A stretch of 64,000 nt of DNA from Parerythrobacter aestuarii (GCF_030140925.1 NZ_JARBWD010000001.1:1488001-1552000), one strand, 5' to 3'. Shown: positions 3 to 39,756, numbered from the stretch's first letter. A program made the numbers and translations. Notes: a model not told the origin generated them from the sequence alone.

Positions 3-716
3 GACGGGGAAGGGCACCTTTGGGTGGCGCCCATTGAAGATGAGGACAGCCAGGCGAGTGAGCGCTGGATAGAATGGCTCTCCGAGAACGAGCGCAAGCG
101 CTATGAAGGGATCGTTCTGCCGGGGGCAAAGACCCAGTTTGCTGCCGGTCGGGCCTTGCTGAAGTCCCTCCTGTCGGAATATTGCCAAATCCATCCTCGG
201 GAATGTGTCATTCGCCCAGATCATCTGGGTCGGCCATTTCTTGAATTCCCAACTGGCTTTGAAGCCTTTGATTTCAACCTTTCGCACACAGGTGGAATGG
301 TTGTGTGCATGATTGCTAGGAATTGCAGATTGGGAGTCGATGTCGAGAATGTGCAAAGACGGCTAGAATACCCGACGCTCGCGCCGCTATTTCTTTCAGC
401 GGAAGAACAGGCCCGAATTAGCCGATTGCAGCCTGCAGAGCGCGACCAATCGCTGATCGAAACCTGGGTTACCAAGGAAGCCTATGCCAAGGCCAGAGGT
501 CTTGGATTACGACTTCCTTTGACAGGATTGATGTGCGACTTCACCAATAAGGTGCCAGAGGTGATTTTCTCAGAAGGATTCGAGCCAGATCCACCGTCTT
601 GGTGTTTCTGGCGATTTGATCAATACGGCTTCAAAATCGCAGTCGCCGCGTCATCCAATCCGCCACTGTCACGGGTCATTGTAAAAGAACGATGCCTTTC
701 ACAGGCTTCGATATGA
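3..716 (+). CDS. 4'-phosphopantetheinyl transferase, Sfp type (5' end outside window)
   Basis: Transfers the phosphopantetheine arm of CoA to the serine of carrier domains; in this window the obvious clients are the two carrier domains of the PKS at 31343-36904. Seen: the FNLSHTGG segment, the magnesium-binding GVDVE motif and the WVTKEAYAKARG motif, in the usual order and spacing. The frame is open from base 3 and reads DGEGHLWVAP, which resembles the normal start of Sfp enzymes, so the gene begins before the window; a GTG at 24 is the first start codon inside it and is probably internal. It ends 34 bases from the convergent dehydrogenase gene. A PPTase at the cluster edge fits a role in the pathway, but it could also serve other synthases of the host. 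Confidence 0.9.
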   Translation, partial: DGEGHLWVAPIEDEDSQASERWIEWLSENERKRYEGIVLPGAKTQFAAGRALLKSLLSEYCQIHPRECVIRPDHLGRPFLEFPTGFEAFDFNLSHTGGMVVCMIARNCRLGVDVENVQRRLEYPTLAPLFLSAEEQARISRLQPAERDQSLIETWVTKEAYAKARGLGLRLPLTGLMCDFTNKVPEVIFSEGFEPDPPSWCFWRFDQYGFKIAVAASSNPPLSRVIVKERCLSQASI

Positions 717-750
717 TCAAGACCAATCCAGATCGGGCCAATTGCAGGGA

Positions 751-1746
751 TCAGAAAGTCGACTCTGCATGCGATTGGGCTTTCTTCCATTCGCCGAGCA
801 GACGATTGATTTCGGCGTTCGAATCATTGGGTGCACCTTGGTTCTCCGTCGCCAAGGCGATCATGGCTTTCGCCAGCCCTCCATGAAGGTCAATCCGAGG
901 CTCGAACGGACCGATAAGGCTTTCCAGAAGGGTGAGATCGTAACGCTGATCCCAGCTCGACATTTCTGCAAGGAAGCAGTCAGGCCCCAATTTTTCTATC
1001 AACCAATCCGAGGGTATGCCGATTGGCTTGAAAATTCCCCCGACAGACTTGGCACACAGTTCATAATAATCGCGCCAAGATATGGTTTCCGGGTTAGCAA
1101 GCAGCACGGTGCGGCCGAATGCCTCGGGCCGCTCAATCAGTCTGGCGATCGCTGTTCCCGCATCGTTGGAGTGCAACACATTCCATAGTGCCGAACCATC
1201 GTCAGCCAGAACCGAGGGGCCCCCGGTCACCAACGGGGCTATCCAGTAGTCATCTTCAAACAATTGCCCGTCAAGATAACATCCCTCTCGGTAACATGCA
1301 CCAAGACGAAGGATCAACGATGAAACCCTTCCGCCGATGGTGGCATCGTTGAATACCTGCTCCATTTCGTATTTGGCTGACGCGTATTCGGTAAGAACTG
1401 AAACTTGCGAACTCTCTGTAATTGGCCGAGGAATTCCGCCGCCATTAACCAGAACAGTCGATGTCGTTACGATACGCTGGCCAATCGGCACTGCCTCGAT
1501 CAACTCCGCAGCTTCATCGGCGGTATAGCATGCAAGGTCGATAATGACCTCGAAGCGTTGCTGCTGCAGGAATTCCGAAAATGCGCCCTGCTTTCTATCG
1601 ATAAGAATAGTTGAAGCAGGCGTCTCGAGAAAGGCATGCGTTGATTGGCCACGGTGAAGAAGCGTGACTTCGTGGCCGGCCTGGATACATTGGTCGACGA
1701 CACCGACGCCTACCATTCCTGTGCCGCCAACTACCAAAACTCTCAT
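751..1746 (-). CDS. NAD(P)-dependent epimerase/dehydrogenase of the extended SDR family; possible AprD3-like reductase
   Basis: Seen: the dinucleotide-binding glycine motif GGTGMVGVG at the N-terminus and a YASAKYEMEQ segment carrying the YxxxK catalytic pair. The start is placed at the ATG at 1746 because the Rossmann strand MRVLVVGG begins there; the open frame runs on to 1818 but adds only a low-complexity arginine-rich stretch. Length 331 residues, usual for extended SDRs. Known: in apramycin and tobramycin clusters an NADPH-dependent reductase (AprD3) completes 3'-deoxygenation after the radical SAM dehydratase AprD4. Inferred: because an AprD4-like gene lies at 23481-24797, this protein is the best candidate for the reductase. 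Alternatives are a sugar epimerase or dehydratase; the SDR at 21580-22287 is a second candidate for the same step. Confidence 0.75.
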   Translation of the reverse strand: MRVLVVGGTGMVGVGVVDQCIQAGHEVTLLHRGQSTHAFLETPASTILIDRKQGAFSEFLQQQRFEVIIDLACYTADEAAELIEAVPIGQRIVTTSTVLVNGGGIPRPITESSQVSVLTEYASAKYEMEQVFNDATIGGRVSSLILRLGACYREGCYLDGQLFEDDYWIAPLVTGGPSVLADDGSALWNVLHSNDAGTAIARLIERPEAFGRTVLLANPETISWRDYYELCAKSVGGIFKPIGIPSDWLIEKLGPDCFLAEMSSWDQRYDLTLLESLIGPFEPRIDLHGGLAKAMIALATENQGAPNDSNAEINRLLGEWKKAQSHAESTF

Positions 1747-1860
1747 TGTCCGCCTGGTCCTCGGGCTAGGTCGAGTCGTCGGCCATGTTTCCTGTTGCAG
1801 CGGCTCTGTCTGCCGCATGGAAGATGGATCGGTTGGAAATCCGGAAGCACGGGACGCATC

Positions 1861-3021
1861 CTAACTCTCCATGCTCATCGCGCGCGCCTTCGGCCGCGAA
1901 GACGAGGACATGCGGTCAAGAACGCGTTCAATGACGGTCTTGTGCACGGGAATGAGGGGAAGCTGCGAGGAGCCTGCGACCTTTCCGATGTCTTCGAGCA
2001 GGACCATCGCGACTTCATCGGCTGCACAGGATATCCTGCCGCGCTTGTTATCCTTCAATATTAGCTCGTGCACCCGATCGAGTCTGACGCTGCTCGGAAT
2101 TCGTGTCGGGAGCCCGCACGCCTCCAGGAAACCGATATGATCTTCAGCGAGTCCGCGGCGGGCCACCCCGATCTCTTCGGCTACGTAGGCCGCAGCACAC
2201 ATTCCGATCGAAACTGCAAGGCCGTGCCTAATTGCATCGCTGCCATGCTGCTCAAGATCGGCCAGCTCTATGGCATGCCCCACAGTGTGGCCGTACTCGA
2301 ACACTACGGCAGGGCCCTGTTCATAGGGATCGTCCAGCATCACTTGCTGTTTGGCAATCGTACCCAACTCGATCAGGCGCAGCCAGGTGTCGTTATCCCA
2401 TGGCTGTGGCCGCCGGGCCAACCGGGTTATTTCCGACATCGTTTTGGGGGCTACAGACAAAGCGTTCTTTGCAAGTTCGGCGAGGCCGGAACGCCTTTCA
2501 ACCTCCGGTAAAGTCGAAAAGACAGGCGCGTCAACAACAATTGCCGACGCGGCCAGATAACTTCCAAACGCATTCTTTCCGTTGTCGGAATTCACCCCGT
2601 TCTTAAGAGAAATGACCACATCAGCAGCTGCAAGCAATGTGGTCGGAACATATACGACTCGCAGTCCTCGATAGATCAGATTGGCCACAAGTCCAGCAAT
2701 GTTGCAGACAACACCTCCGCCAAATCCGACCACCAATGTTCGCCGGGAAACCCCTGCCTGGATTGCCTCTTCGCAAAGCCTGTTCAAAGTTGTGAAGTTC
2801 TTTTCAGTTTCGCCTGCCTCCACAAGTAGCGAAACAACCGGTGCGTGTATTTCGAGGAGTCTCTGAATTTCTTCGCCATGCAAAGAATAAACAGTCTTGT
2901 CGGATATTAGCAAAATGCGATCTGTCGGCGGATCAACGTCTAACCATGAATGATCAGCTTCGCGGTCGAGCGACCAAAAATACGAAATGCGATGGTTGCC
3001 AAGGTCGACATTTGGAAGCAT
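1861..3021 (-). CDS. 2-deoxy-scyllo-inosose synthase (dehydroquinate synthase superfamily)
   Basis: Would convert glucose 6-phosphate to 2-deoxy-scyllo-inosose, the first committed step to 2-deoxystreptamine. Seen: the NAD-binding GFGGGVVCNIAG loop; SLKNGVN followed by GKN, as in BtrC/NeoC; and the three metal ligands in GLAELAKNA (Glu182), EYGHTVGHAIE (His245) and RHG (His266), numbered from the ATG at 3021. Dehydroquinate synthases usually have Asn-Leu or Asn-Phe before GHT; here it is Glu242-Tyr, and a glutamate there is a mark of deoxyinosose synthases. The epi-valiolone synthase type normally reads GHTWSP and is not matched. A TTG at 3045 is an alternative start; neither start has a strong ribosome site. 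Together with the aminotransferases and the glycosyltransferase it defines an aminoglycoside cluster. The C-terminus carries a serine-rich tail. Confidence 0.88.
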   Translation of the reverse strand: MLPNVDLGNHRISYFWSLDREADHSWLDVDPPTDRILLISDKTVYSLHGEEIQRLLEIHAPVVSLLVEAGETEKNFTTLNRLCEEAIQAGVSRRTLVVGFGGGVVCNIAGLVANLIYRGLRVVYVPTTLLAAADVVISLKNGVNSDNGKNAFGSYLAASAIVVDAPVFSTLPEVERRSGLAELAKNALSVAPKTMSEITRLARRPQPWDNDTWLRLIELGTIAKQQVMLDDPYEQGPAVVFEYGHTVGHAIELADLEQHGSDAIRHGLAVSIGMCAAAYVAEEIGVARRGLAEDHIGFLEACGLPTRIPSSVRLDRVHELILKDNKRGRISCAADEVAMVLLEDIGKVAGSSQLPLIPVHKTVIERVLDRMSSSSRPKARAMSMES

Positions 3022-3189
3022 GTAAGAGACATATCGCCAGGCCAAGTTTCAGTCTAGATGTTTTAGTCGTGTAGTTCCTTAATCAGTCACAGTAATGATG
3101 TGAATCCCAGAGGTGGCTTGGGAATCGACGGGCGAATAGGAAAGAGACGTGCGGGCTGGCATTATTTGGTGAGGAGGGTCGAAGAGTCG

Positions 3190-4218
3190 ATGCAAGCTCT
3201 CATAATGACGGGTTCGGGTCGCATGGCACTTGAGAACATCCCCGATCCCGAACCCGGCCCGGACGATGTGTTGATCGCGGTTGATGGGTGCACGATCTGT
3301 GGAAGCGACCTGCGCATTCTCGAGGGCAGCATGGACGGCGTGGATTATCCGCTGGTTCCTGGCCATGAGTGGGGAGGGAAGGTTGTAGACAGCGGCAAGG
3401 GGGCGTCTGATTTGGTTGGCGCGCAGGTTGTTGCCGATATTTTGCAGAGCTGTGGGAGCTGTTCAAACTGCCAGACCGGGTGGCGTAATCACTGCACAAA
3501 TCTCATAGAGCCGGGTTTGAGCGCGCAGGGTGCGTTCGCCGATTATATCGTTGTTCCGCGCCAATCGGTGCGCAAGCTTCCAACCGGTATCGATGCCAAC
3601 TTGGCATGCCTCGTGGAACCCATCGCGGTTGTCCTGCATGCGATCGCGCGCCAACCGGCATTTCATGGCGACAGGATTCTCATTATCGGTGGCGGTGGTA
3701 TCGGCCAGATGTGTTTGGCAGTGCTTGCAAGCAGGGGGCTTGGGCCAATTGCCTTGATCGATCCCAATGAAGGACGCCGTGCCCATGCAAAGGCGTTGGG
3801 AGCAAGCGCTTTTCCGTCTTGGCACGATTTTCGAGAGGAGGTTGTAGACGCGCTCGGTGGGGTACCCGACATAGTATACAACGCGGCCAACAAGGCGGGC
3901 GCATTGGTCGATGCAGTGGACGCCTGCAGGACACGTGGCCGGATCTGCCAGATAGGTTACACCGGCTCGGAATTCGGCCAGATTCGCCCAGCCGAAATAA
4001 TGGTGAAGGAGCTCTCGATTGTCGGGGCATTGTCTCCAACCGCCGACTGGAGTGCCGCGATTGATGTCGTCGCTCGTTGTGGTGAAACCCTTAGACCATT
4101 GGTGACACATGAGTTCGCGCTGTCGGAATACGAGCAGGCCTTCGCGATGATGCGAGACCGGAAGGAAGCGGCAATCCGCGTGATGCTCACCGGTGCAGCA
4201 GCTTCACGCCAGCACTAA
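3190..4218 (+). CDS. Zinc-dependent dehydrogenase, probable 2-deoxy-scyllo-inosamine dehydrogenase (NeoA/KanE type)
   Basis: Medium-chain alcohol dehydrogenase of 342 residues. Seen: catalytic-zinc segment CTICGSD, GHEWGG, the four-cysteine structural zinc loop CGSCSNCQTGWRNHC, a LVEPIAVVLHAI stretch and the nucleotide loop GGGGIGQ. The pattern VPGHEWGG with the cysteine loop and VEP resembles the NeoA family, which oxidises 2-deoxy-scyllo-inosamine at C-1 before the second transamination. The ATG at 3190 was chosen because MQALIMTG is the usual first strand and a GAGGAGGG lies upstream; the frame is open back to 3100. It faces the cyclitol synthase across about 170 bases that must hold both promoters. 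No BtrN-style assignment is needed if this enzyme does the step. General sorbitol/threonine-type dehydrogenase remains possible. Confidence 0.82.
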   Translation: MQALIMTGSGRMALENIPDPEPGPDDVLIAVDGCTICGSDLRILEGSMDGVDYPLVPGHEWGGKVVDSGKGASDLVGAQVVADILQSCGSCSNCQTGWRNHCTNLIEPGLSAQGAFADYIVVPRQSVRKLPTGIDANLACLVEPIAVVLHAIARQPAFHGDRILIIGGGGIGQMCLAVLASRGLGPIALIDPNEGRRAHAKALGASAFPSWHDFREEVVDALGGVPDIVYNAANKAGALVDAVDACRTRGRICQIGYTGSEFGQIRPAEIMVKELSIVGALSPTADWSAAIDVVARCGETLRPLVTHEFALSEYEQAFAMMRDRKEAAIRVMLTGAAASRQH

Positions 4219-4256
4219 ACCAATCGAGTGTGGCTCTGGCAGCATCGGGAAGTGCC

Positions 4257-5030
4257 ATGGAAACCGAATTAGACGACGTCATTTTCGAGCAAATCCCGCC
4301 TTCCAATGACGGGACAAATCCCAAGCTCTACGCTGAAAGGGCTTCCTGGTGGCCATTGATGTCGCCAAGATCCCACTACTGTAACGAGGCGGAATTTTTC
4401 ACTCTCCTCTTCAAGCAACATGGTGCGCCAAAAGCGGCCACTTTGTTGGAATTGGGGAGTGGCGGCGGTCATCTTGCATCATACCTAAGTGATGAATTTG
4501 TCATCACCCTGAGTGACCTTTCAGAGGGGATGCTCACGGCGAGCCGGGCATTGAATCCTGACTGTGAACATATCGCCGGCGACATGCGCAGTCTCCGGAC
4601 GGGGTGCGAATATGACATCGTCATAATCCACGACGCGATTCATTACATGACCACCCTGGATGACTTGGAGCGCGCTCTCATGACCGCTGCCTTGCATTGC
4701 AGGGAAGGCGGGCTCGCACTGTTTGTTCCCGATCATGTTGCCGAAACTTTCGTTCCCGGGACCCGCTGTCAGGACACCACGCTAGGCAAGAGGCGGCTGC
4801 GCTTCATGGAGACGGTCGACGATTTTGATCCAACGGACAATGCGTGCACTGCGGAACATGTCTTCCTATTCGAAGAACAGGGAAAGCCTCGCAAGATCAG
4901 TTACCAGCGGCTGACGTGGGGGGTGTTCAGCATCGACACCTGGCTGGCTGCCCTGCAGCGTTGTGGGTTTGAAGGAGAGGTTTTGGATGACGTTGAAGGT
5001 CGCCGTATCTTTCTGGCCAAGCGCACCTGA
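4257..5030 (+). CDS. Class I SAM-dependent methyltransferase
   Basis: Seen: motif I LLELGSGGGHLA, an acidic end of strand two (LSDLSEGML), the GDMRSL segment and a DIVIIHDAIHYM motif, all in the N-terminal half, followed by a region typical of small-molecule methyltransferases (GGLALFVPD). About 257 residues. The ATG at 4257 has GGGA a few bases upstream; a GTG at 4230 in the same frame is an alternative. It lies between the dehydrogenase and the exporter, all on the + strand and closely spaced, so the three are probably one transcript. The substrate cannot be read from the sequence; an N- or O-methylation of the aminocyclitol or sugar is the reasonable inference. Confidence 0.78.
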   Translation: METELDDVIFEQIPPSNDGTNPKLYAERASWWPLMSPRSHYCNEAEFFTLLFKQHGAPKAATLLELGSGGGHLASYLSDEFVITLSDLSEGMLTASRALNPDCEHIAGDMRSLRTGCEYDIVIIHDAIHYMTTLDDLERALMTAALHCREGGLALFVPDHVAETFVPGTRCQDTTLGKRRLRFMETVDDFDPTDNACTAEHVFLFEEQGKPRKISYQRLTWGVFSIDTWLAALQRCGFEGEVLDDVEGRRIFLAKRT

Positions 5031-5042
5031 GTTTGTCGGTCT

Positions 5043-6296
5043 TTGGCTGCTGGGCTGAAATATCGAGAGAAGACGACCGTTGCCGTCGTCGCATCCATCG
5101 TATTCATAGATATGCTTGGGTTGGGCTTGATCCTTCCTGTCATGCCAGGGTTGCTCGGCGAGCTTACCGGGGCCGGGCCGGCCGACGCAGCGGCTTATGG
5201 AGGGCTGCTCCTTCTCTCCTATGCTGCCATGCAGTTCCTCTTTGCGCCCGTCATCGGCAACCTCAGTGACCGTTTCGGGCGTAAACCAGTTTTACTCGCA
5301 ACGTTATTCGCATTGGCGATCGACTACTTGATAATGGCCTTTGCCCCCAGCCTGACCTGGCTGGTCATTGGAAGAATCCTCGCTGGGATAATGGGTGCTG
5401 CATGGGTCGCGGCCAATTCCTGCATCGCAGATGTGATGCCAGTCGATCGTCGGGGATCAGGGTTTGGCTGGATTGCCGGAGCCGGTGCAGCGGGCATCGT
5501 CCTCGGGCCGGTCGCCGGTGGAGTTACTGGTGAATTCGGGATCCGAGTACCATTCTTGCTCGCAGCAGGCCTTGCTTTGCTGGGAGCGATCATTGGCTGG
5601 TTCGTACTCCATGAAACTCTCTCCAAAGATGCGAGGAGTCCCTTCCGTTTGGCAAGCATCAACCCTCTGGCTGTTCTCTTTCGGGTTGCTAGAAATCCGG
5701 TCATTTCGACATGCCTTGTCGCAATCTTCCTGGTACAACTTTCGTCCCAGGCGCACATGTCCATTTGGGCTTTTTGGGGCGAGCAACGGTTTGGCTGGAC
5801 CCCGTTTCTGAGCGGCCTCACGGCATCAATGTTCGCTGTTGTTCTAGGGACTGTCCAGGCAGTGCTTACTGGTCCAAGCATTGCACGTTTCGGGGCACTT
5901 CCTGCGGCGATCGGTGCGCTTGTATTCGGCATTCCCTCGTACCTATTGCTCGCTTTCGCCCCTTCCATGGGTTTTGTGCTTCTCGCAATTGTGCTGGGCG
6001 GGTTGACGGGAATCGCATTTCCCGCGCTTCAGACCATGATGACCGCCCAGACCGACAAGAGTGCACAGGGCGAACTTCAAGGCGCGATAGGGAGCACGCA
6101 CAGCCTTTCAGCGATGGTCGGCCCGATTCTCATGACGCAGGTGTTTGCGCATTCAGCAGATGACCAGGGTGTTTACTTCCCCGGGGCGGCTTTTGTCCTG
6201 GCAACCTGTTTGCTCTGCATTGCCATAGTCCTCTTGCTATCACGCAAGAGCGAGATCGAACGGCGGGTTGGCGCAAGTGCGTCTACTGCCGACTAG
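5043..6296 (+). CDS. MFS drug exporter of the Tet/DHA1 type
   Basis: 417 residues with about twelve hydrophobic segments. Seen: the DHA1 motif A sequence GNLSDRFGRKPVLL between the second and third helices, preceded by AAMQFLFAPV, and GAGAAGIVLGPVAGG, which corresponds to the antiporter motif C region. These are hallmarks of TetA-like proton-driven exporters in the inner membrane. The only in-frame start after the preceding stop is a TTG at 5043, 13 bases after the methyltransferase gene, so the two are likely cotranscribed. Its stop overlaps the end of the convergent radical SAM gene by four bases. Inferred role: export of the finished aminoglycoside or a protected precursor. Confidence 0.88.
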   Translation: MAAGLKYREKTTVAVVASIVFIDMLGLGLILPVMPGLLGELTGAGPADAAAYGGLLLLSYAAMQFLFAPVIGNLSDRFGRKPVLLATLFALAIDYLIMAFAPSLTWLVIGRILAGIMGAAWVAANSCIADVMPVDRRGSGFGWIAGAGAAGIVLGPVAGGVTGEFGIRVPFLLAAGLALLGAIIGWFVLHETLSKDARSPFRLASINPLAVLFRVARNPVISTCLVAIFLVQLSSQAHMSIWAFWGEQRFGWTPFLSGLTASMFAVVLGTVQAVLTGPSIARFGALPAAIGALVFGIPSYLLLAFAPSMGFVLLAIVLGGLTGIAFPALQTMMTAQTDKSAQGELQGAIGSTHSLSAMVGPILMTQVFAHSADDQGVYFPGAAFVLATCLLCIAIVLLLSRKSEIERRVGASASTAD

Positions 6297-8358: not shown

Positions 8359-8362
8359 CCGG

Positions 8363-9400: not shown

Positions 9401-9463
9401 TGTCTGTCTCCTTCTACGTTCCCTCGTGGAGCAAGCGAACCAGTTGTTAGCGTGGGGATAAAA

Positions 9464-11538: not shown

Positions 11539-11605
11539 TGAACAGGCCCGAAACCGCGTAGGTTCAGTGTTCTATCTAAGGGTTGTCTTGATTGCCAGTA
11601 TAATC

Positions 11606-11626
11606 GGCATTCTTTGGCCCAATGCC
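11606..11626. promoter_or_regulatory. Inverted repeat upstream of the aldo/keto reductase-radical SAM run
   Basis: Six-base arms GGCATT and AATGCC separated by nine bases, in the AT-rich 161-base gap between the glycosyltransferase stop (11700) and the reductase start (11538). On the - strand a TATACT lies just downstream of the repeat. It could be an operator or a weak terminator hairpin; there is no T-run, so I lean to an operator. Low confidence. Confidence 0.25.
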
Positions 11627-13797: not shown

Positions 13798-14050
13798 TAT
13801 TTTCCAAGTCGCACGATTCGAGGCTCTCTGCACGGTGCCAACCTGTATTTGGCAATTGCCTTGTAATCGGTGCAGCATCCCCACTACAATAGAAAAAAAG
13901 TTCGGTTCAAGTTAGTCTGATCGTTTGCGGCCTTCGATGTGCAATTCGCCATTGGACAATAGGCACGCGCGTTCGTGTTTGGGGGATCGGGATGCGAAGT
14001 GCGATAAATCCGCAAGCGCTCCTCCCTTTCCGCTCGGGCCGTGAGAAGGC

Positions 14051-22287: not shown

Positions 22288-22416
22288 TGTGCGAAAGGCA
22301 ATCCGTTCCTTTAGCCCAACGGCGCTCAACCACTCGTGCCGCAATTCACACAGTGGGCCGACCGTGCGACTTGGGCCGTACTAGCGCAGGGCCGAGAAAA
22401 GTGTCAATGTTAGGGG

Positions 22417-26599: not shown

Positions 26600-26750
26600 T
26601 CGCGGTTCGAAAACGCACCGCTATTGTCCCGACTATATAGAAGATAACTAACAAAAATTAGGCGAAAAGCAGCGATATCATCTGCTTGACTGACTTTGAA
26701 AAGAGTATAGCCTGAAAAAAGCGCGATTAACGTCCGTCACAGGATTGGAC

Positions 26751-28160: not shown

Positions 28161-28274
28161 GAAGTGAGAGTCTGAAGCGCTCATGCAAATTAATGACAAC
28201 AATTGCGCAGAATAAGTCGTATTGTAGAACAAATGGTTATAATTGAGGGTTGAAAACTATTTCGGAGTGAAAGT

Positions 28275-29558: not shown

Positions 29559-29561
29559 GGG

Positions 29562-31346: not shown

Positions 31347-34300
31347 ACGCTCCGGAAGTCGTTCGCTGGCTGAGAGAATATCTTGTCGCCAAATACCCGC
31401 TTCTCGAACGTGAGTTTGACCCGAACCTTTCGTTTGCCGCGCTCGGATTGGACTCGCAAGTCGCGCTGGAGATGCTTGGGGAACTACAAGATCGGCTGGG
31501 TCGCAACATAAGCCCGGCTCTTTTGTACGATAGCCAGTCGATCGCCGATTTCGTCGCGATGTTGTCCATGTCGCCTGACATGCCAGAGGAGCCCATAGCG
31601 TCAGCAACTCCAGATGAACCGGTAGCCATCGTGGGAATGTCCTGTCGGTTTCCCGGATGTGAAGATGGCTTAGGTTCCTTCTGGCTTTGCTTGCAGAACG
31701 GCCATGATCAGATTCGAGCTTTTTCTGAACTGGAACGGCCGGCAACGGACGTCCTGCCGCACCGGCGAGCAGGCTGGTTGGCCGACATCGACAGATTTGA
31801 CGCTGACTTCTTTGCCATCCCACCGCGGGAGGCTCGAGCGCTCGATCCCCAACAGCGAATGCTGATGGAGCTGTCCTGGAACTGCTTTGAGGACGCGCTC
31901 ATTGATCCCAGGAAATTGAGAGGCAGAAATGTTGGGGTTTTCCTTGGGATATCAACCAGCGAATATAGTGACCACCAACCTCGCAATGCCGATGCGTCGA
32001 GCATTACAGGGTCGGCACTCAGCATTGCAGCCAATCGTCTGTCCTATTTCTATGACTTTGGCGGGCCCAGCCTGGCAGTTGATACTGCATGCTCGTCGTC
32101 GCTGGTTGCAGTACATCTGGCATGCAATGCGATCAGGCGAGGGGAGGCAGAACTTGCCTTGGCTGCAGGTGCCAACCTCATTCTCAATGAAAAAGTCAGC
32201 CACGCTTTCGAGGCAGGCGGCCTGTTGTCTCCGACCGGGCGCTGCAATACCTTCGATGCTTCGGCGGACGGCTATGTGAGAGGTGAGGGGGCTGGTGTCG
32301 TTCTGCTCAAACCGCTGAGACAGGCGATTGCCGACGGCAACAAGATCTATTCGGTCATTCTAGGCAGTGCGATGGTTCAGGATGGTCGCACGAACGGATT
32401 GATGGCTCCAAGCGGCCGCGCGCAGCGCAAGGTGATCCGGGAAGCCTGCGCGCGAGCCGGATTGAAGCCCTCGCAACTGGATTATGTTGAAGCCCATGGT
32501 ACCGGAACAAACTTGGGTGACCTTATCGAGCTGAGCTCGATGGAGGCAACGGTCGGCACGGCTCGTGGTGCTGGCAAGTGTCGAATTGGTTCGGTCAAGA
32601 CCAATATCGGCCACCTCGAAGCGGCAGCAGGGATAGCGGGGCTCATAAAGACCTCGCTTTGCATGTTCCATGAGACATTGGTGCCATCTATCAACTTCCG
32701 CGAGCCCAATACGAACGCAGGGCTGTCGGAAATGGGACTTGAGGTTCAGGTTTCGCTTGAGCCCTGGCGACGAGAAAATCCTGATACCTTGGCGGGACAT
32801 GGTCACGCGCAAGTCGATTCGAGGTATGCTGGTGTAAGTTCATTCGGCTTCGGTGGAACCAATGCGCATGCGGTGCTCACGTCGCCGCCTCGACGTGAAA
32901 ATGCGAAGCCTGCTGCATTTCCCGCGGTCTTGCCGTTGTCAGCGAAGTCGGAAGAGTCTCTCAGCCGGCTGGCAGGTGCCTACGTTGATCTTCTGGAGCA
33001 GCCCGAGCCGCCGGTATTTTCACATCTCATCGACGCTACCAGGCGACGTCCGGCGGCGGCACCGGTTCGGGTGGCCATCAGTTTTCGCGATGAGGAGGCA
33101 CTACGGCAAGAACTCAGGCAGGTTGAACAGAATCCGCATGGAAAGTCGTCTCAACCAAGTATCCAGAACAATGGGCCAGTGTTTGTCTATTCCGGGCAAG
33201 GGACGCAGTGGTCCGGCATGGGACGAGGGCTCTTCCAAGAGGATCCGATCTTTCGCAATGAGTTATTGCTGGTCGACGACCTAGTCAGGGAACACGTTCG
33301 CTGGTCATTGGTGGAGATGCTGTTCGACGAAGCGAATGCGGCGTCGCTTGCTCGCACTGAATTCGCGCAACCAGCGCTTTTCGCCATACAGTATGCGCTT
33401 TCAAAATCGCTCGGCTCTTTCAACGTAGAACCAGTGGCGACAATCGGTCACAGCGCTGGCGAGTACGCCGCGTTGGTCCAATCTGGCATCATTGAGCTCA
33501 ATGAGGCTGTCGGTCTGGTCGTCGAGCGTGCATCCTTGATGGCTGATCGCGACGATGGAGCGATGTTGGCAATATCGGGCCAGTCAGAGGAAGAGCTTTC
33601 CACCATGATTGTGGAGCATGGCCTGCCAATCGACATTGCATGTCGTAACGCGCCGCGCTCATTGGTAATTTCTGGTCGACGCGACGCTGTCAAAGAGCTC
33701 GGTCGGGTGATGGCAGAACAAGGCATCGCCAGCTTGCCTGTTTCGGAAGACTATGCCTTCCACAGCCATTTGTTGTCCGATCAGGCTGATCGATTTGCTG
33801 CAATGGCCAAAAGCGTCTCGCCGCACTCAGGCAATCTCCCCTTCTATTCGAGCGTCACGGGTGGACGGCTTGAACAGCTTCAGGATTCCTATTGGCGGTC
33901 CAGCATCGTTGGCGCTGTGGAGTTCGAGAATGCTGTCGGAGCGGCTTTGGCCGATCAGCATACGCATTTCATAGAAATCGGGCCAAAGCCTGCTCTGTTG
34001 GCTCACATCAGGAAAATCGGCGAGAGCCAGCAGGTTGCGGCCCACACTTTCGCAACGTTGAAGCCGGGCAGTCCGGATACCCAACAAATTGCAACAGGAT
34101 TGGCTCGGCTGTTTGAGAGCGGAGTTGACGTCCGCTGGCATCGGCGTTTCGAGACGATTGTCAACAACACTGCCATTCCCACCTACCCTTGGTCGGACAT
34201 GCGCTTCTGGCAAGTACCATCACTGGGCACACAACTGCCGGGTGAAGGCCGATTTGTCCGTCAGACACTCCAGATTGCAGGCACAAATCGGCGCGTTTCG

Positions 34301-36904
34301 ACGATACGCATTGATGGGAATCTGGGCGAAAATCTGAAAGATCACGTCATCCATGGCCGGGTTCTTCTTCCCGCAGCTGCCGTGATAGAAATTCTCCTTG
34401 AGGCTATCGAGACATCAGGTTCAAAGTCACGGCCTCAGGTCATTCTTGATGAGATTGAATTCCACACTCCTTTGGAACTGTCAGGGGAAGGAAATGACCT
34501 TCAAGTCGTTCATGAAGCCATGGGCGATGCCGTTTCTCTTGGAGTATTTGCCCGGGGCAAGGATGAGACCTGGATAAGCATCGCGACAGCGCGTGCGCTC
34601 ACAACAGAATCTTCACCGCGAGAGAATGGTATCAATCCGGATTCGGTCAAGGAATTCTCCTATGAGATCATCGAAGGTGCCGACCTGTACGAACGCCTGC
34701 GGGAAGTCGGCTATGAATATGGTCACTCGTTCAGACGCCTTGACCGGGCCTGGCTCGATGGCGATTGCGCGGTGGCCAACGTAGCGACCGGGCACGCCCA
34801 ATCGTTCATTTGTGACCCGATGTCGCTTGATAGCTCCTTTCATCTGGCAGGGGTCTTCGCCAGCCGTGACGGCTCTGACAAAACAATGTTTGTTCCAACG
34901 CGGGTTGGCCAACTTTCTGTTCAGCGAAAAGCCTTGGGACCGTGGACGGTTGCAATGCAGCTTACCGAGCGCACTTCTTCATCGTTCACCGTCGATTGTG
35001 AGCTGATCGACGACAAAGGTGTTTGGGCTCGCATAGAGGGACTGCGATTCAACCCGCTTGCGAACCAACCTCGAACCGATACCGGTCGTGTCGATGCTCT
35101 GGAGTTCTACAACGTAGGATGGTTGCCATGGGTGCCCAGCGCCAGGCTCCCCGATCTTGCAGGTGAATGGATTGTTCTTACCAATGACACAAAGTTGGGA
35201 AGTACCATTGCAGGTTCGTTGAAAGACCGAGGCGCCGGGAGCACGGTCGTTACCCCGTCCCCCGTTTTCGAATGTTTCGGCGATCGAAGTTTTGGAATGG
35301 ACTTCGGCTCAGCCGAGGATTTGCATAAGCTGTTTTCTACGGTCACGGCCGATGGGAAGCGCATCGGCGGCGTCGTCTATTGTGGACTGCTTGATGGCAA
35401 CGCCACCGCCACCGCCACCGCGATGCCGGCATGCAGCACAGGGCCGGTTTTCCTCCGGGAATTGATTCATGCTCTGATGGCGGTCGGAGCCGGTGGATCG
35501 GCGCACGTTCATATTGTTACAGAGGCTTGCCAGCCGGTTGTAGAGAAGGATGTTCGCAATCCTCGTCAAGCGGCAATATGGGGGTTTGCAAGGGCGGTCC
35601 CTTTCGAACATCCCGATCTGCGATGCACCCGCATAGATATCGGCGACAGCGCGAACGAGCGAGAGGTTGCCACCTTGTGTTCCTTGCTTGGCCTGCCCGA
35701 TAACGAAGATCAATTTGCGATCCGCGGAGATCGGTCCTTTGTCGCGAGGTTGCTTGAAGGTGAGATCCAACCCAAGCAGACCGCCCTGGACCAGATGCCT
35801 GAAACGGATGGCGTGTGCCTTGTAACAGGGGCAACCGGGGCTCTTGCGATCCATGCCGCCCGGGCGGCCATAGCAGCTGGCTATCGAAATCTGGTTCTGT
35901 TGGGCGGTTCGAAGGCAGTGGATCTCGATCAGGACGCATGGATGGAACTTGGACGCCATGCGAGGATGGCAGCCCTAAAATGTGATCTACGCGATCAAGC
36001 GGCGGTTCGGACGGCAATCAAGGATATCGAGGAAACGGACGGCCGGATTGTTGCGATTGTCCACCTTGCTGGCGTGCTGGACGATGGAGCTATTGCGAAG
36101 CTGACGCCGCAGCGCATCACGAATGTAGTTACAGCGAAGGCGGATGGTCTCTGGTTCATTCTCGATGCTGTCGGAACGGACGCGCTCAAAACGGTAATGC
36201 TGTTTTCGTCGGCAGCAACCATTCTTGGTTCACCCGGTCAGGCCAGCTACATGGCAGCTAACGCAGTCTTGGATGCGACAGCGCATTTTCTTTCCGGCCG
36301 GGGGATATCGGCGACCAGCGTGAATTGGGGGCCCTGGGAAGGGCCGGGTATGGCGAGCGATATAACAGCCAGAGAAGGCAGGAATTCTCAGCTGGCGAGA
36401 TCGATTAATCCAGCACAGGCCGTTGATCTCACACGAACACTGCTTGAGTCAGATGAAGTGCAGGTCGCCATTCTTCCCTTTGACGTGAAACCCTTGGTCC
36501 AATTCTATCCCAGCATGCGCGGCCTCGAGTTCTTCGAGAAGATCATGAACGACGATATGGAGGTTTTGCGTAGCGATGGGGGGCGTGAGCAATTGTACAA
36601 GCGGCCCAATCTCGACACGCCCTTCGTGGCTCCCGAGACGGAACTTGAACGCTACATCGCTGGCCTTTGGAGCAGATCGCTAGGTATGTCGGATATCGGC
36701 ATAAACGACGAATTTTTCGCACTGGGTGGGGATTCAGTATTTGCCGGTCAGATCATCTCGGAGCTTGTCGCCACTTTCGATATTTCGCTGGATCTAGAGC
36801 AGGCATTCGACACCTTTACCATTTCCTCTATTTCGAAGTTGATCGAGGAAGCGATCGCAAAGAAAGCGGATGCGGTACAGGTCCATACCAATTCGGGCGC
36901 ATGA
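31343..36904 (+). CDS. Type I modular PKS, one module: ACP-KS-AT-DH-KR-ACP
   Basis: 1853 residues. Domains in order: ACP (about 1-85, LGLDS); ketosynthase (about 90-530) with Cys250 in DTACSSS, His385 in EAHGTGT and His424 in KTNIGHLEA; acyltransferase (about 610-930) with Ser704 in GHSAGEY and a YAFHSH motif, which favours malonyl over methylmalonyl; dehydratase (about 990-1270) with HVIHGRVLLP at His1001 and Asp1163 in LDSSFH; ketoreductase (about 1490-1690) with TGATG, the LDD motif at 1579-1581 (B-type) and Tyr1636; ACP (about 1735-1835) with Ser1798 in LGGDS. No enoylreductase and no thioesterase, so one extension to an alpha,beta-unsaturated or hydroxy chain and no self-release. The gene ends 12 bases before the convergent radical SAM gene. 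Confidence 0.92.
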   Translation: MNAPEVVRWLREYLVAKYPLLEREFDPNLSFAALGLDSQVALEMLGELQDRLGRNISPALLYDSQSIADFVAMLSMSPDMPEEPIASATPDEPVAIVGMSCRFPGCEDGLGSFWLCLQNGHDQIRAFSELERPATDVLPHRRAGWLADIDRFDADFFAIPPREARALDPQQRMLMELSWNCFEDALIDPRKLRGRNVGVFLGISTSEYSDHQPRNADASSITGSALSIAANRLSYFYDFGGPSLAVDTACSSSLVAVHLACNAIRRGEAELALAAGANLILNEKVSHAFEAGGLLSPTGRCNTFDASADGYVRGEGAGVVLLKPLRQAIADGNKIYSVILGSAMVQDGRTNGLMAPSGRAQRKVIREACARAGLKPSQLDYVEAHGTGTNLGDLIELSSMEATVGTARGAGKCRIGSVKTNIGHLEAAAGIAGLIKTSLCMFHETLVPSINFREPNTNAGLSEMGLEVQVSLEPWRRENPDTLAGHGHAQVDSRYAGVSSFGFGGTNAHAVLTSPPRRENAKPAAFPAVLPLSAKSEESLSRLAGAYVDLLEQPEPPVFSHLIDATRRRPAAAPVRVAISFRDEEALRQELRQVEQNPHGKSSQPSIQNNGPVFVYSGQGTQWSGMGRGLFQEDPIFRNELLLVDDLVREHVRWSLVEMLFDEANAASLARTEFAQPALFAIQYALSKSLGSFNVEPVATIGHSAGEYAALVQSGIIELNEAVGLVVERASLMADRDDGAMLAISGQSEEELSTMIVEHGLPIDIACRNAPRSLVISGRRDAVKELGRVMAEQGIASLPVSEDYAFHSHLLSDQADRFAAMAKSVSPHSGNLPFYSSVTGGRLEQLQDSYWRSSIVGAVEFENAVGAALADQHTHFIEIGPKPALLAHIRKIGESQQVAAHTFATLKPGSPDTQQIATGLARLFESGVDVRWHRRFETIVNNTAIPTYPWSDMRFWQVPSLGTQLPGEGRFVRQTLQIAGTNRRVSTIRIDGNLGENLKDHVIHGRVLLPAAAVIEILLEAIETSGSKSRPQVILDEIEFHTPLELSGEGNDLQVVHEAMGDAVSLGVFARGKDETWISIATARALTTESSPRENGINPDSVKEFSYEIIEGADLYERLREVGYEYGHSFRRLDRAWLDGDCAVANVATGHAQSFICDPMSLDSSFHLAGVFASRDGSDKTMFVPTRVGQLSVQRKALGPWTVAMQLTERTSSSFTVDCELIDDKGVWARIEGLRFNPLANQPRTDTGRVDALEFYNVGWLPWVPSARLPDLAGEWIVLTNDTKLGSTIAGSLKDRGAGSTVVTPSPVFECFGDRSFGMDFGSAEDLHKLFSTVTADGKRIGGVVYCGLLDGNATATATAMPACSTGPVFLRELIHALMAVGAGGSAHVHIVTEACQPVVEKDVRNPRQAAIWGFARAVPFEHPDLRCTRIDIGDSANEREVATLCSLLGLPDNEDQFAIRGDRSFVARLLEGEIQPKQTALDQMPETDGVCLVTGATGALAIHAARAAIAAGYRNLVLLGGSKAVDLDQDAWMELGRHARMAALKCDLRDQAAVRTAIKDIEETDGRIVAIVHLAGVLDDGAIAKLTPQRITNVVTAKADGLWFILDAVGTDALKTVMLFSSAATILGSPGQASYMAANAVLDATAHFLSGRGISATSVNWGPWEGPGMASDITAREGRNSQLARSINPAQAVDLTRTLLESDEVQVAILPFDVKPLVQFYPSMRGLEFFEKIMNDDMEVLRSDGGREQLYKRPNLDTPFVAPETELERYIAGLWSRSLGMSDIGINDEFFALGGDSVFAGQIISELVATFDISLDLEQAFDTFTISSISKLIEEAIAKKADAVQVHTNSGA

Positions 36905-36916
36905 GCTGGTACAGCT

Positions 36917-37885
36917 TCATACGTGGGTTCGAGATTGCAGGTATTCCAGACGTCGCTCATCTTCGAAGCATTTGTGACAGAAATCGCAGATCGAAGTGAA
37001 TCGCGCCTTCTCCAAACCTGCAAAGACATCCTCTGAAGCGACCAGCCTACGAAAATAGGTTGGCGATGACTCATCGTAGAATTCTCGCAAGAGAGAGGCC
37101 TGCTGATGTGCACTACCTATGTCGATTTCCGATGCGTCCTTTGCAGTGTACCGGATCGGAGCAGGGCTGAGTGCTTCCTTGGCGGCGTTGATTTCGCAGC
37201 ATGAGTAAATTTCTCCGTCAGCGTGCAAAGTCATCATCAAGGCATCACAATCCGGAAGCTCGGATAAAGCGAAGCTCTGTTCTCCTACCAGCTGCTGGTC
37301 GCTTGCCCTGCCTACATCCAGCAGAGGATTAATGATCGGATCTATCCCGGCGACCTCCAACGCGGTCAGAATATCGTCATCGATCTCCTGCTCCCCACAA
37401 GGGCAGAAATTCACTTCGACGAGCAAGCCCAGGTTGCGTGCTGCTTTGGCAGCGTTGATTGTCTTCCGGAGAGGCATTTCGCGAGTGTGAAACGCGTCTG
37501 CGCTTAGGACCAGGGCGGCTAATCCGTCTTGTTTTAGTGGCCTTAACCGATCTTCTGCTTGTTCGATCGAGCGAGCCCAATAGGCGTTGGTTTCAATGTC
37601 GACCGCATAGCCCAGATCATGGGCGGCGGTGACGAGCTCACTCAGTCGATTGCTGTCGAGGAAGGGCTCCCCGCCACTGAATATCACGTGTCGCTTCCCC
37701 ACGGCCCAGCCATCGCGTAGCGCTTTAAGTACGGCGGCCGTATCCAACCTTTCCGTTCGCGAGGGGTTCGCCGCGACATTGCAGTGCCAGCAGGACAAGT
37801 TGCATTTCAGGAGCAGGTTGATGGCAAGGCGCTGAGAGATCGGGAATCGATCCCAGACTTTGTCGCGCTCAGTCTTTTTGTGCAT
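36917..37885 (-). CDS. Radical SAM enzyme, fourth member of the cluster paralogue family
   Basis: 322 residues from the ATG at 37885, which has GGAG upstream; the frame is open to 38071 but that part overlaps the previous gene. Seen: CNLSCWHC (Cys28, 32, 35), IFSGGEPFLDS, ETNAYWAR, SADAFH and VEVNFCPCGE, then CDALMMTLHADGEIYSCCE and a terminal SICDFCHKCF. The ETNAYWAR and SADAFH segments are shared with the genes at 7270-9400, and the terminal CxxC with 6293-7273. It overlaps the end of the unknown gene 37869-38762 by 17 bases. Last of a three-gene run read from 39756. Confidence 0.85.
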   Translation of the reverse strand: MHKKTERDKVWDRFPISQRLAINLLLKCNLSCWHCNVAANPSRTERLDTAAVLKALRDGWAVGKRHVIFSGGEPFLDSNRLSELVTAAHDLGYAVDIETNAYWARSIEQAEDRLRPLKQDGLAALVLSADAFHTREMPLRKTINAAKAARNLGLLVEVNFCPCGEQEIDDDILTALEVAGIDPIINPLLDVGRASDQQLVGEQSFALSELPDCDALMMTLHADGEIYSCCEINAAKEALSPAPIRYTAKDASEIDIGSAHQQASLLREFYDESSPTYFRRLVASEDVFAGLEKARFTSICDFCHKCFEDERRLEYLQSRTHV

Positions 37886-38762
37886 GGCTTGCAACTCCGA
37901 GATACTTGTCCAAATGCCTGAGATCGAAGAGGGCATACCGGTAATCGGCGTCCTCAGTCCGAACGCGAAGCGCGCTCGCCCCCACTCGTCTTGGCAGGGC
38001 GCGATACACTCTCCACATCTGATGGCCGGGTTCAGACTCTTCGGGCAGGAATGGAAACTGATGGAGAGCAAATTTTCGAAGTTTGCGAGTCTTCATGAAA
38101 GCGGCAATTCCACGCAGCAAGATGGCAAGCCAATCTCGTTGGAATACCCGTCGAAGCGTGCGTATCGTACTGACGGCACCAAGACCTTCGACCGGTCCTC
38201 TGCCGATAGAAATTTCGTCGCCGTTCCTGATCTCGGTGGGCTGTCGTGATTGCATCAAATAGGAATAGCGCGCAGCAAGGTCGCTCTGGATTCCCGACAC
38301 GTACAATGTATCGCCGTCTGTCGAACCGATCGCATAACCAACATAGCCCGGCATGCCAGCATCCATGAAATTCCAATCGGCCGCTTCAAACAATCGTTGC
38401 GGTAGCTCAGGGCAGTTTTTTAGGTAAAACCGCAGCGTCACTGCTTCACCGAACTTGGCGAAGCGTTCTCCAGCGTAGTCGTCACACAAGCCCAGCATTG
38501 GGACGACCTCAAAATCGTTCGTCTTGTTACGATATCTGACAGGCTCGCCCAAGGGTGCCGTATCGTTCATGCTTCGCAGCAGGGTTCCAAGCGTCACGCC
38601 CCGCCGACGCGCAATCTCGCTCCGGTCATCCTCGGAACAGATCGTTGTGGCATATTCTGTGCGGCGTGCCCCCAGATACTCGTTCATTGTAACATGACGG
38701 CAGAAAAAATCCTGCTCGCTGGTGGCCTTGTATTGTGTTTCGCAGGGTTCTGTTGCTGGCAT
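37869..38762 (-). CDS. Conserved-looking protein of unknown function between two radical SAM genes
   Basis: 297 residues from the ATG at 38762, which has GGGGGG about eight bases upstream; an ATG at 38687 is an alternative. No family recognised. Features seen: no signal peptide or membrane span, a few scattered cysteines, a central stretch with PGYVGYAIGSTDGDTLYVSGIQ, and a basic C-terminal third with several arginines and RRVGASALRVRTED. It lies 16 bases after a SPASM radical SAM gene and overlaps another, so a shared substrate or complex is likely. A GNAT-like or similar acyltransferase fold was considered but no motif supports it. Confidence 0.7.
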   Translation of the reverse strand: MPATEPCETQYKATSEQDFFCRHVTMNEYLGARRTEYATTICSEDDRSEIARRRGVTLGTLLRSMNDTAPLGEPVRYRNKTNDFEVVPMLGLCDDYAGERFAKFGEAVTLRFYLKNCPELPQRLFEAADWNFMDAGMPGYVGYAIGSTDGDTLYVSGIQSDLAARYSYLMQSRQPTEIRNGDEISIGRGPVEGLGAVSTIRTLRRVFQRDWLAILLRGIAAFMKTRKLRKFALHQFPFLPEESEPGHQMWRVYRALPRRVGASALRVRTEDADYRYALFDLRHLDKYLGVASHAQKD

Positions 38763-38778
38763 TGTCGAAACCCCCCGA

Positions 38779-39756
38779 TCAGTGATGGGCGAACAATGCC
38801 CTGTCGCTCTCTTGCAGGAGAGGCATCAGGGAACCTACCAGCCATTCAGCCTGGTCTTTTCGTGGCAATTTGCAGCGGGCGCACATGGGCGGGATCGGGC
38901 GCGCCTCGAGAACGGCACGTTTGCGCTGCTTGAGTGTTTCCCAATCATCGGTGAGCACCGATCCCAGGGGTATGCGGGAGCCGTTGAAGTAGTCGCAGCA
39001 ACACATCAGGCACTCGCCGTTCCAGCCAAACGTTAGGCTGAAAGCGACTTCCGTGCACCAGATCGGCTTCGAGGTATCCGGTGCCTCAATCTGGTCAGGC
39101 AGATATTGTTGGTATTCGGCCGGAAGTTGATCTGCGCGGTTCCACAACTTGCCTCCAGTCAGACCGCAGGCGACTCCTCTACTTGTCCAGAACTCAACTA
39201 TCTCCTTGTCAGTGCTCTTGATTTCCGGAACACCCACCCACTCTACCTTGAATGGTACTCCAGCCACGCGCGCTGCTCTCGCTGTCTTGATGACGCGGTC
39301 GAGCGATCGCTCATATGGCAGCCGCATTGCCGCTTCATACTCGTCCTGCGCGATACCCCAGAAACTACACGTTATCGATGCTGGTGCGACCTCCATCAGC
39401 TCTTCGATGCGCTTTGATGTAAGGGCACTGGCGTTCGTAATGATATGGAAGTTCTCTGTGTGCCCCTTGATCTGTTCCAGCAGCTGAATCGCATTTGAGT
39501 TCAGGAAAGGCTCCCCACCTCCTGCGATTGTTATTCTTGGCAGGTCATCCAAAGGCAAGTCGGCGAGCGGACGGTAGTCCTCCAAAATAGCTGCACGAAT
39601 GGCAAGGATCCGCTCAAGTGTAACTGAGTCCAAACGACCCTGTGCTGGTAAATTGTCGCGCGGGCAAGCTACGCAATTTGCATTGCATTGGCTGATGAAC
39701 TCTATTTCAATCTCGGTGGGCAATACCCGTTCGGCAAGCAGTCCAGGTTTTCCCAT
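38779..39756 (-). CDS. Radical SAM/SPASM protein at the right end of the cluster
   Basis: 325 residues with a good ribosome site (GGAGG) seven bases before the ATG. Seen: CNANCVACPRD (Cys24, 28, 31), IAGGGEPFLN, IITNAS, a C-terminal SPASM region with WCTEVAFSLTFGWNGECLMCCCDYFNG, GSV and PPMCARCKLPR. The substrate cannot be deduced. It is the first gene of a three-gene run (SPASM, unknown, radical SAM) that ends against the PKS gene, and the last recognisable gene of the biosynthetic island. Confidence 0.85.
   Translation of the reverse strand: MGKPGLLAERVLPTEIEIEFISQCNANCVACPRDNLPAQGRLDSVTLERILAIRAAILEDYRPLADLPLDDLPRITIAGGGEPFLNSNAIQLLEQIKGHTENFHIITNASALTSKRIEELMEVAPASITCSFWGIAQDEYEAAMRLPYERSLDRVIKTARAARVAGVPFKVEWVGVPEIKSTDKEIVEFWTSRGVACGLTGGKLWNRADQLPAEYQQYLPDQIEAPDTSKPIWCTEVAFSLTFGWNGECLMCCCDYFNGSRIPLGSVLTDDWETLKQRKRAVLEARPIPPMCARCKLPRKDQAEWLVGSLMPLLQESDRALFAHH

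Follow-up and report, generated by a model that had tools for sequence, protein, structure and literature searches.

In this study, we analysed a 64,000-nucleotide stretch of Parerythrobacter aestuarii DNA (the window: positions 1488001-1552000 of contig 1, NZ_JARBWD010000001.1, in a genome of 3.02 Mb and three contigs), and found a compact block of 30 genes running from about -9, the start of a phosphopantetheinyl transferase (PPTase) gene, to about 39.8 kb. Judged from its sequence, this block would build a deoxygenated pseudodisaccharide aminoglycoside, most likely of the fortimicin/istamycin type, and would then N-acylate it by a nested line of a fatty acyl-AMP ligase (FAAL), a polyketide synthase (PKS), and a condensation domain; such a product would be an uncommon type of antibiotic. 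We give this reading a probability of roughly two in three. The cluster itself is confirmed as real and is apparently intact, with no internal stop in any of the 30 frames. All enzymes that an earlier note had named here are present as open frames; Pfam backs the Zn-dependent dehydrogenase, GT4 glycosyltransferase, PIG-L deacetylase, GMC dehydrogenase, and class III aminotransferase (AT3), and Pfam together with NCBIfam backs the FAAL, the PKS, and the free-standing condensation domain.

Affinities of the aminoglycoside core

Candidate clusters came from a scan of GTDB contigs with an alignment of 2-deoxy-scyllo-inosose synthase (DOIS; best 80 of 98 loci), and the 30 window proteins were compared by tblastn with 15 chosen clusters, counting non-overlapping homologues over about 40 kb for six of them (five actinomycete clusters and that of Streptoalloteichus tenebrarius) and about 21 kb for the remaining nine. 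Streptomyces sp. MUM 203J has 13 homologues, Saccharopolyspora kobensis 12, and three Actinokineospora clusters 11, 11, and 11, followed by the AprD4-bearing S. tenebrarius with 9, two further Streptoalloteichus loci with 7 and 7, P. brassicacearum, Trinickia, Photorhabdus, and Xenorhabdus with 6 each, Microtetraspora with 5, Mitsuaria with 4, and P. entomophila with 3; the maximum for the six Gram-negative loci is therefore 6/30. In control loci that carry a DOIS gene (for example, L050, L054, L059, and L069), this gene is the only one matched by the 30 proteins. Eleven genes are common to all five actinomycete clusters, namely DOIS, DegT aminotransferase 1, the Zn-dependent dehydrogenase, the SPASM radical S-adenosylmethionine (SAM) enzyme, YydG-like enzyme D, the protein U297, GT4, methyltransferase 2, GMC, AT3, and PIG-L. 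Because these include two radical SAM enzymes and U297, which is also found in the fortimicin producer Micromonospora olivasterospora, the core is, on this gene content, most likely a fortimicin/istamycin-type pseudodisaccharide pathway.

"Fortimicin-type" and "apramycin-type" are our own labels for loci without a named product, and the fortimicin and istamycin reference clusters lie outside the comparison. S. kobensis ATCC 20501 is presumably the sporaricin producer. Like the window, the five fortimicin/istamycin/sporaricin-type clusters have the 11 genes, and their genomes hold the NpmA methyltransferase family. In contrast, the window proteins are just 28-49% identical to theirs, the host is an alphaproteobacterium, and the block adds a second DegT gene, a pair of AprD4-like enzyme and short-chain dehydrogenase/reductase (SDR), further YydG-like enzymes, and the FAAL-PKS-condensation operon. 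A product of this type would contain a 1,4-diaminocyclitol. M. olivasterospora has been published as the fortimicin producer (PMC6804068), and the cyclitols in fortimicins and istamycin are fortamine and 2-deoxyfortamine (PMC11405602).

The closest solved relative of the cyclitol synthase is BtrC, a 2-deoxy-scyllo-inosose (DOI) synthase (188 bits versus 117 for the top dehydroquinate synthase), and the top three PDB matches of both DegT proteins are L-Gln:DOI aminotransferases (best 336 bits versus 171 for the next kind in DegT 1, and 226 versus 157 in DegT 2), in agreement with the earlier note. In a tree of 101 rows made by a quick method, the synthase lies within a starred 82-row clade (98) that includes the Streptoalloteichus loci, apart from the AroB clade in which the host's own AroB (C1:1602767) sits, and its nearest rows are metagenome proteins P0002 and P0003 (54-56% identity; 99, starred). 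We therefore regard it, from its sequence, as a DOI synthase rather than AroB. The earlier note had named a grouping with dehydroquinate or epi-valiolone synthases as the result that would speak against an aminoglycoside; this identity is ruled out by the DOIS clade, in a tree with no epi-valiolone synthase knowingly among its rows, and by the 80 bits to 4p53, which we take to be an epi-valiolone synthase, versus 188 to BtrC. The DOI synthase of S. hindustanus has reportedly been characterised. Neither DegT protein fell inside any starred set of the DegT tree, which was set aside.

The GT4 glycosyltransferase scores 378-404 bits against those of the five actinomycete clusters, versus 185-258 against the Streptoalloteichus enzymes and 119 for the top NCBIfam GT4 match. 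In a 29-row tree, without outgroup GT4s, it groups with the five (99/97, starred), so that it joins aminoglycoside glycosyltransferases instead of the unrelated GT4 enzymes that the earlier note had allowed for. The GMC dehydrogenase groups with the same five clusters (97, starred), and AT3 with ten actinomycete rows (100, starred), apart from the Gram-negative rows, among which one actinomycete, Microtetraspora, falls.

Alternatively, the core may make a 2-deoxystreptamine (2-DOS) aminoglycoside of the neamine/nebramine kind, with the radical SAM enzymes common to fortimicin-type clusters serving elsewhere. The neamine-route homologues DOIS, DegT, GT4, PIG-L, GMC, and AT3 are all present, the same six-gene set as in Gram-negative 2-DOS-like clusters (Pseudomonas, Photorhabdus, Trinickia, and Xenorhabdus); the two DegT genes match the two aminations at C1 and C3; and AprD4 and SDR homologues occur in Streptoalloteichus clusters, the known products of which contain 2-DOS. 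However, GT4 and GMC cluster with the five fortimicin-type enzymes and apart from the neamine-type ones, and the SPASM enzyme, YydG-like D, methyltransferase 2, and U297 are present in 5/5 fortimicin-type clusters, and none of the four was detected in the other ten clusters, nine of which were read over only about 21 kb. We consider a 2-DOS product unlikely and retain the fortimicin/istamycin-type core. The term "neamine-type" of the earlier note is thus an oversimplification of the core, which by gene content and in the trees falls with the five actinomycete clusters.

The apramycin-type S. tenebrarius cluster shares AprD4, the SDR, a KamB-family methyltransferase, DOIS, the Zn-dependent dehydrogenase, GT4, GMC, and two DegT genes (9/30), whereas its 40 kb contain no homologue of the window's SPASM enzyme, YydG-like enzymes, U297, or acyl operon. 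The Gram-negative 2-DOS-like clusters have their GT4, GMC, and AT3 in clades other than the window's, and no acyl operon was among the homologues of the six loci. Contrary to the earlier view that such clusters come mainly from actinomycetes and Bacillus, neamine-route sets were found in Pseudomonas, Trinickia, Photorhabdus, Xenorhabdus, and Roseateles. The butirosin pathway of Bacillus supplies close solved relatives of the window enzymes (BtrC and the DOI aminotransferases). There, the acyl side chain is put on the amine from a carrier protein: the 4-amino-2-hydroxybutyrate (AHBA) chain is assembled on BtrI, and BtrH transfers it; the window has FAAL-PKS and a condensation domain instead. 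A 2-DOS-like cluster has been published from Pseudomonas Ps639 (PMC8719888), and an istamycin match has been reported in Arctic metagenomes (PMC8767328). Separately, cyanobacterial loci of Moorena and Oscillatoria (L020 and L029) hold DOIS, DegT, PIG-L, and weak GT4 homologues together and are possible aminoglycoside clusters.

U297 has no Pfam match, and its predicted model may have a weakly GNAT-like fold. Its family comprises 65 proteins at E <= 1e-5 (7998 candidates scored), and the 11 with a named organism are ten actinobacterial proteins, including that of M. olivasterospora, and one (P0182, on a 131-kb contig) from a metagenome-assembled genome (MAG) of the alphaproteobacterium Propylenella. 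In a tree made by the quick method, the window protein, the Propylenella protein, and three unnamed ones form a starred five-row clade (97) apart from the 60 others, and Propylenella may hold a second such pathway in alphaproteobacteria. The closest solved relative of YydG-like D is YydG, nine of its cysteines, including the CxxxCxxC triad, are invariant in 6/6 homologues, and it would perform a ring epimerisation. Since enzymes A to D score 98, 76, 55, and 92 bits on TIGR04078, all under the cut-off of 300, we call them only YydG-like. The AprD4-like enzyme has the cluster motif CPYPCGYYC, versus CPYPCRFYC in S. tenebrarius (the unusual CX3CX3C), and among 296 genomes of the order only P. aestuarii exceeds 111 bits on the AprD4 model.

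The acyl operon and the putative resistance genes

The plus-strand operon at 24857-36904 encodes an orphan protein, the condensation domain, a luciferase-like monooxygenase, the FAAL, and the PKS. It is flanked by the AprD4-like gene on one side and by YydG-like D, U297, and radical SAM enzyme E on the other, and its GC content at third codon positions (GC3) is 0.54-0.61 and does not differ from that of the core genes. The PKS retains the motifs DTACSS, HGTGT, and NIGH in KS, GHSAG in AT, HVIHGRVLLP in DH, and YMAAN in KR, and both serines of the acyl carrier proteins (ACPs). Because it is set between aminoglycoside genes and has an equal GC3, the operon probably belongs to the same pathway, in which it would N-acylate the aminoglycoside; nesting, composition, and active-site motifs favour the acylation put forward in the earlier note, which stays at the level of a prediction.

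One could also see here two unrelated neighbours, one cluster for an aminoglycoside and another for a lipid or polyketide. The five actinomycete clusters are without FAAL, PKS, and condensation-domain homologues, and lines of this kind also produce lipopeptides. On the other hand, aminoglycoside genes with a like GC3 lie on both sides of the operon, and there is a single condensation domain with no amino-acid adenylation domain among the Pfam matches of the block, so that the acceptor amine would come from elsewhere. Two separate clusters therefore seem quite improbable, and we keep the operon within the aminoglycoside pathway. A. pegani has one frame resembling the window monooxygenase (52 bits). 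For the orphan protein, no relative was found at E <= 0.001 (7997 candidates scored, from 5.8 billion proteins), and its predicted model is not useful (predicted local distance difference test score, pLDDT, of 36). By eye only, and not claimed as an assignment, it has a caspase-like His/Cys pattern (ATHGDG ... LDTCSG), as well as two CxxC pairs near its C-terminus. Two Acetivibrio loci (L076 and L080) have a DOIS-like gene close to FAAL and weak condensation-domain homologues.

A 16S rRNA methyltransferase, the self-resistance gene expected of the fortimicin/istamycin type, is present in the block. The earlier note had called it KamB-like, and it scores 213 bits on the Pfam NpmA family (PF24675, cut-off 60). 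It is below all four NCBIfam cut-offs (NpmB 116/460, WarA 99/305, KamB 88/350, and NpmA 73/470) and, by sequence, belongs only to the broader Pfam family. This family is over the cut-off in 7/15 genomes, the five fortimicin-type ones and both Streptoalloteichus, and in 0/8 Gram-negative DOIS genomes; the gene is on the cluster contig in MUM 203J and on a different contig in the other four fortimicin-type genomes. A kamC gene has reportedly been described from Saccharopolyspora hirsuta. The family occurs in 9/385 alphaproteobacteria including P. aestuarii, and in the other eight DOIS is absent (top score 123 bits, or no match); their NpmA-family genes (L121, L122, and L124-L126 among them) form a possible reservoir of A1408 methyltransferases. 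Two fortimicin-type clusters contain APH genes, which have no direct similarity to the window APH-fold kinase at 1e-6.

The sugar core might instead make a surface glycolipid or a capsule cyclitol and no antibiotic, as FAAL-PKS lines are known for cell-surface lipids. However, an A1408-family methyltransferase, an APH-fold kinase, and a major facilitator superfamily (MFS) pump are embedded in the block, and 11 genes are common with actinomycete clusters whose genomes hold the same methyltransferase family. We regard this as the least probable of the alternatives, and an acylated aminoglycoside remains our preferred product.

Several points weigh against this product and its type. The evidence consists of gene content, homology, clade membership, and composition, and the reactions, the product, and its activity are all deduced from these. 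Calling the five clusters fortimicin-type relies on one homologue of a known producer, taken irrespective of its place in that genome, and on S. kobensis ATCC 20501 being, presumably, the sporaricin producer. The top NCBIfam model for the window DOIS is AroB (228 bits, under its cut-off of 305), and the window GT4, GMC, and AT3 have long branches (1.02-1.25, GT4 being 1.02), which meet in the AT3 and GMC trees. The AprD4-like enzyme, with 332 bits on NF033070, is under the curated cut-off of 500, hence only "AprD4-like", and the five fortimicin-type genomes lack a clear AprD4 (48-90 bits in four and nothing in one), so that this enzyme and its SDR are an addition to the fortimicin-type gene set. 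The A1408 methyltransferase is closest (50-51%) to genes of two DOIS-less alphaproteobacteria and is therefore by itself no sign of production. In the acyl line, the AT motif YAFH is ambiguous, and the condensation motif HHIVFDY has Y in place of G. Since tblastn detected no FAAL, PKS, or condensation-domain homologue in the five actinomycete clusters, it is position and composition that tie the operon to the sugar core.

In the proposed route, DOIS would convert glucose-6-phosphate to 2-deoxy-scyllo-inosose, which DegT 1 would aminate. GT4 would add N-acetylglucosamine, PIG-L would then deacetylate it, and the GMC dehydrogenase and AT3 would install the 6'-amine. Either the Zn-dependent dehydrogenase or the SPASM enzyme would oxidise the cyclitol so that DegT 2 can aminate it a second time, YydG-like enzymes would invert ring carbons, two methyltransferases would add methyls, and the AprD4-like enzyme with the SDR would remove the 3'-hydroxyl of the sugar. 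The FAAL may load a fatty acid onto the N-terminal ACP, the PKS module may extend it by one unit, and the condensation domain may take the chain off the C-terminal ACP and attach it to an amine, in place of the glycyl group of fortimicin. The host would be shielded at its ribosome by the A1408-family methyltransferase and would release the product through the MFS pump. Frame starts in the table were placed by domain onset for the NpmA-family gene (about 21538, not 21847), PIG-L (about 20826), and the last YydG-like gene (about 37843).

Table. Genes of the block, with window positions, strand, and supporting matches; functions are predictions
Feature	Position	Strand	Evidence
4'-Phosphopantetheinyl transferase (would activate carrier proteins)	3..716 (start about -9, outside window)	+	PF01648 52 bits; GC3 0.54
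NAD-dependent epimerase/dehydratase	751..1818	-	PF01370 57.5 bits
DOIS	1861..3021	-	closest solved relative BtrC; DOIS clade
Zn-dependent dehydrogenase	3100..4218	+	PF08240/PF00107; homologue in 5/5 actinomycete clusters, 33-36%
SAM methyltransferase 1	4230..5030	+	PF13649 39.7 bits
MFS exporter, Tet(A)-like subfamily	5043..6296	+	PF07690 152 bits; NF012174 288 bits, cut-off 475
YydG-like radical SAM enzyme A	6293..7273	-	TIGR04078 98 bits; CxxxCxxC
YydG-like radical SAM enzyme B, true start internal	7270..8427	-	TIGR04078 76 bits; CxxxCxxC
YydG-like radical SAM enzyme C	8363..9400	-	TIGR04078 55 bits; homologue in 2/5 fortimicin-type clusters, 38-41%
Radical SAM/SPASM enzyme	9464..10591	-	PF04055 + PF13186; 5/5 fortimicin-type clusters, 34-36%; 8 invariant Cys
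Aldo/keto reductase	10588..11538	-	PF00248 95 bits
GT4 glycosyltransferase, putative pseudodisaccharide former	11700..12971	-	matches and clade with five fortimicin-type glycosyltransferases
Methyltransferase 2	12982..13884	-	5/5 fortimicin-type clusters, 30-32%
GMC/FAD dehydrogenase, putative 6'-oxidation	14051..15628	+	PF05199; clade with fortimicin-type
DegT aminotransferase 1 (L-Gln:DOI aminotransferase)	15664..16995	-	PDB: DOI aminotransferases best
DegT aminotransferase 2, putative second cyclitol amine	16992..18209	-	PDB: DOI aminotransferases best
AT3, putative 6'-amine	18775..20100	-	PF00202 151 bits; actinomycete clade
PIG-L-type N-deacetylase	20131..20826	-	PF02585 52 bits; homologue in 5/5 clusters, 28-36%
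NpmA/KamB-family 16S rRNA A1408 methyltransferase, putative self-resistance	20894..21538	-	PF24675 213 bits; PDB 4rwz 129 bits
SDR, AprD3-like, putative AprD4 partner	21580..22344	-	102 bits/36% to SDR of AprD4-bearing S. tenebrarius cluster
APH-fold kinase, resistance or biosynthesis	22417..23421	+	PF01636 67 bits; HGDPGPGN motif
AprD4-like radical SAM diol-dehydratase	23481..24797	-	NF033070 332 bits; PDB 6fd2 284 bits; CX3CX3C
580-aa orphan protein without known family	24857..26599	+	no relatives in protein search
Free-standing condensation domain, HHIVFDY	26745..28160	+	PF00668 127 bits
Luciferase-like monooxygenase	28275..29558	+	PF00296 170 bits
FAAL	29562..31346	+	PF00501 178 bits; NF004509 370 bits, cut-off 775
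PKS module ACP-KS-AT-DH-KR-ACP	31343..36904	+	Pfam domains; active-site motifs
YydG-like radical SAM enzyme D, likely epimerase	36917..37843	-	5/5 fortimicin-type clusters, 38-43%; YydG 8ai6 64 bits
U297, Pfam-less, marker of fortimicin-type clusters	37869..38762	-	5/5 clusters, 37-47%; M. olivasterospora homologue
Radical SAM enzyme E	38779..39756	-	PF04055 44.5 bits

Borders, host, and origin of the block

The host is a sphingomonad according to its 16S matches: Novosphingobium resinovorum is 93.3% identical, and the Sphingomonas and Sphingobium sequences are 92-93% identical (plasmid collection; best 12 of 532 records); one further record outside the best 12 had a best place of at least 99%. 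Gene content and 16S thus support the presence, in a sphingomonad, of an aminoglycoside-type cluster that encloses the PKS/condensation block. In 2-kb steps, GC is 52-58% in window 1-40000 versus 59-66% beyond. The 30 block genes, from PPTase to radical SAM enzyme E, have GC3 of 0.54-0.68 (mean 0.60), against 0.73-0.79 (mean 0.77) in nine chosen right-flank genes and 0.65-0.83 in 13 mechanically listed left-flank frames (identified genes: SpoU 0.75, DEAD helicase 0.73, LigT 0.80, and YceG 0.73). Because of this uniformly low GC3 relative to the flanks, the block is likely imported DNA. No second copy of the nearest tRNA (parts of at least 13 bases) was found in the window or the 18-kb left flank, the two block edges share a single 13-base match only, no integrase was among six upstream frames scanned, and no ortholog of the neighbouring SpoU gene was found in four genus-mates (best 30%).

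The import could be decaying and no longer productive, as a DOIS-level match occurs in 1/397 sampled family genomes and one orphan gene has no relatives found; against this, 30/30 frames are without internal stops, and the catalytic motifs examined are retained, some of them as variants (AT and condensation domains). Decay is thus very unlikely, and we continue to regard the pathway as apparently intact. Right beside the block, window 40332-50330 holds four DUF11-domain genes, one of 1722 aa, with host-like GC. Further on, two overlapping acyl-CoA dehydrogenase-like frames lie at 53657-55848; the first frame contains the N-terminal and middle domains, and the second chiefly the C-terminal one.

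Distribution and meaning

Among 397 family genomes, P. aestuarii itself included, only P. aestuarii exceeds 139 bits with DOIS; at the level of the order, the genomes G039 and G045 score 155 and 144 bits, yet both fall in the AroB clade. Likewise, among 385 genomes of the class only P. aestuarii has a U297 match above noise level (a second genome gives E 8e-4). No alphaproteobacterial aminoglycoside cluster was among the matches listed in the open-access PMC literature (titles and abstract openings), subscription literature lying outside this scope. Gram-negative 2-DOS-like clusters themselves are already known from Pseudomonas; what is new is the combination, in an alphaproteobacterium, of a fortimicin-type core, an A1408-family methyltransferase, deoxygenation of the apramycin type, and a lipid/polyketide line for acylation.

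More tentatively, and at somewhat less than even odds, the product may be a natural lipo-aminoglycoside, namely a 3'-deoxygenated fortimicin-type pseudodisaccharide with a PKS-extended acyl group for glycyl, made by a Gram-negative alphaproteobacterium with an A1408-methylated ribosome. On this reading, the unnamed metagenome proteins and the Propylenella MAG hint at a small alphaproteobacterial branch of such pathways. To our knowledge, no natural lipo-aminoglycoside has been reported earlier, and semi-synthetic lipid-linked aminoglycosides are sought to restore activity on resistant bacteria. If true, the cluster would provide a new chemotype along with new enzymes, that is, an acyl-transferring condensation domain for aminoglycosides, radical SAM ring editors, and an AprD4-like deoxygenase. 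U297, by its presence in 5/5 fortimicin-type clusters examined, is a testable candidate for an unassigned step. Such a pathway would also mean a transfer of fortimicin-type chemistry between actinomycetes and alphaproteobacteria, self-resistance included, which would bear on the origins of A1408 methyltransferases.

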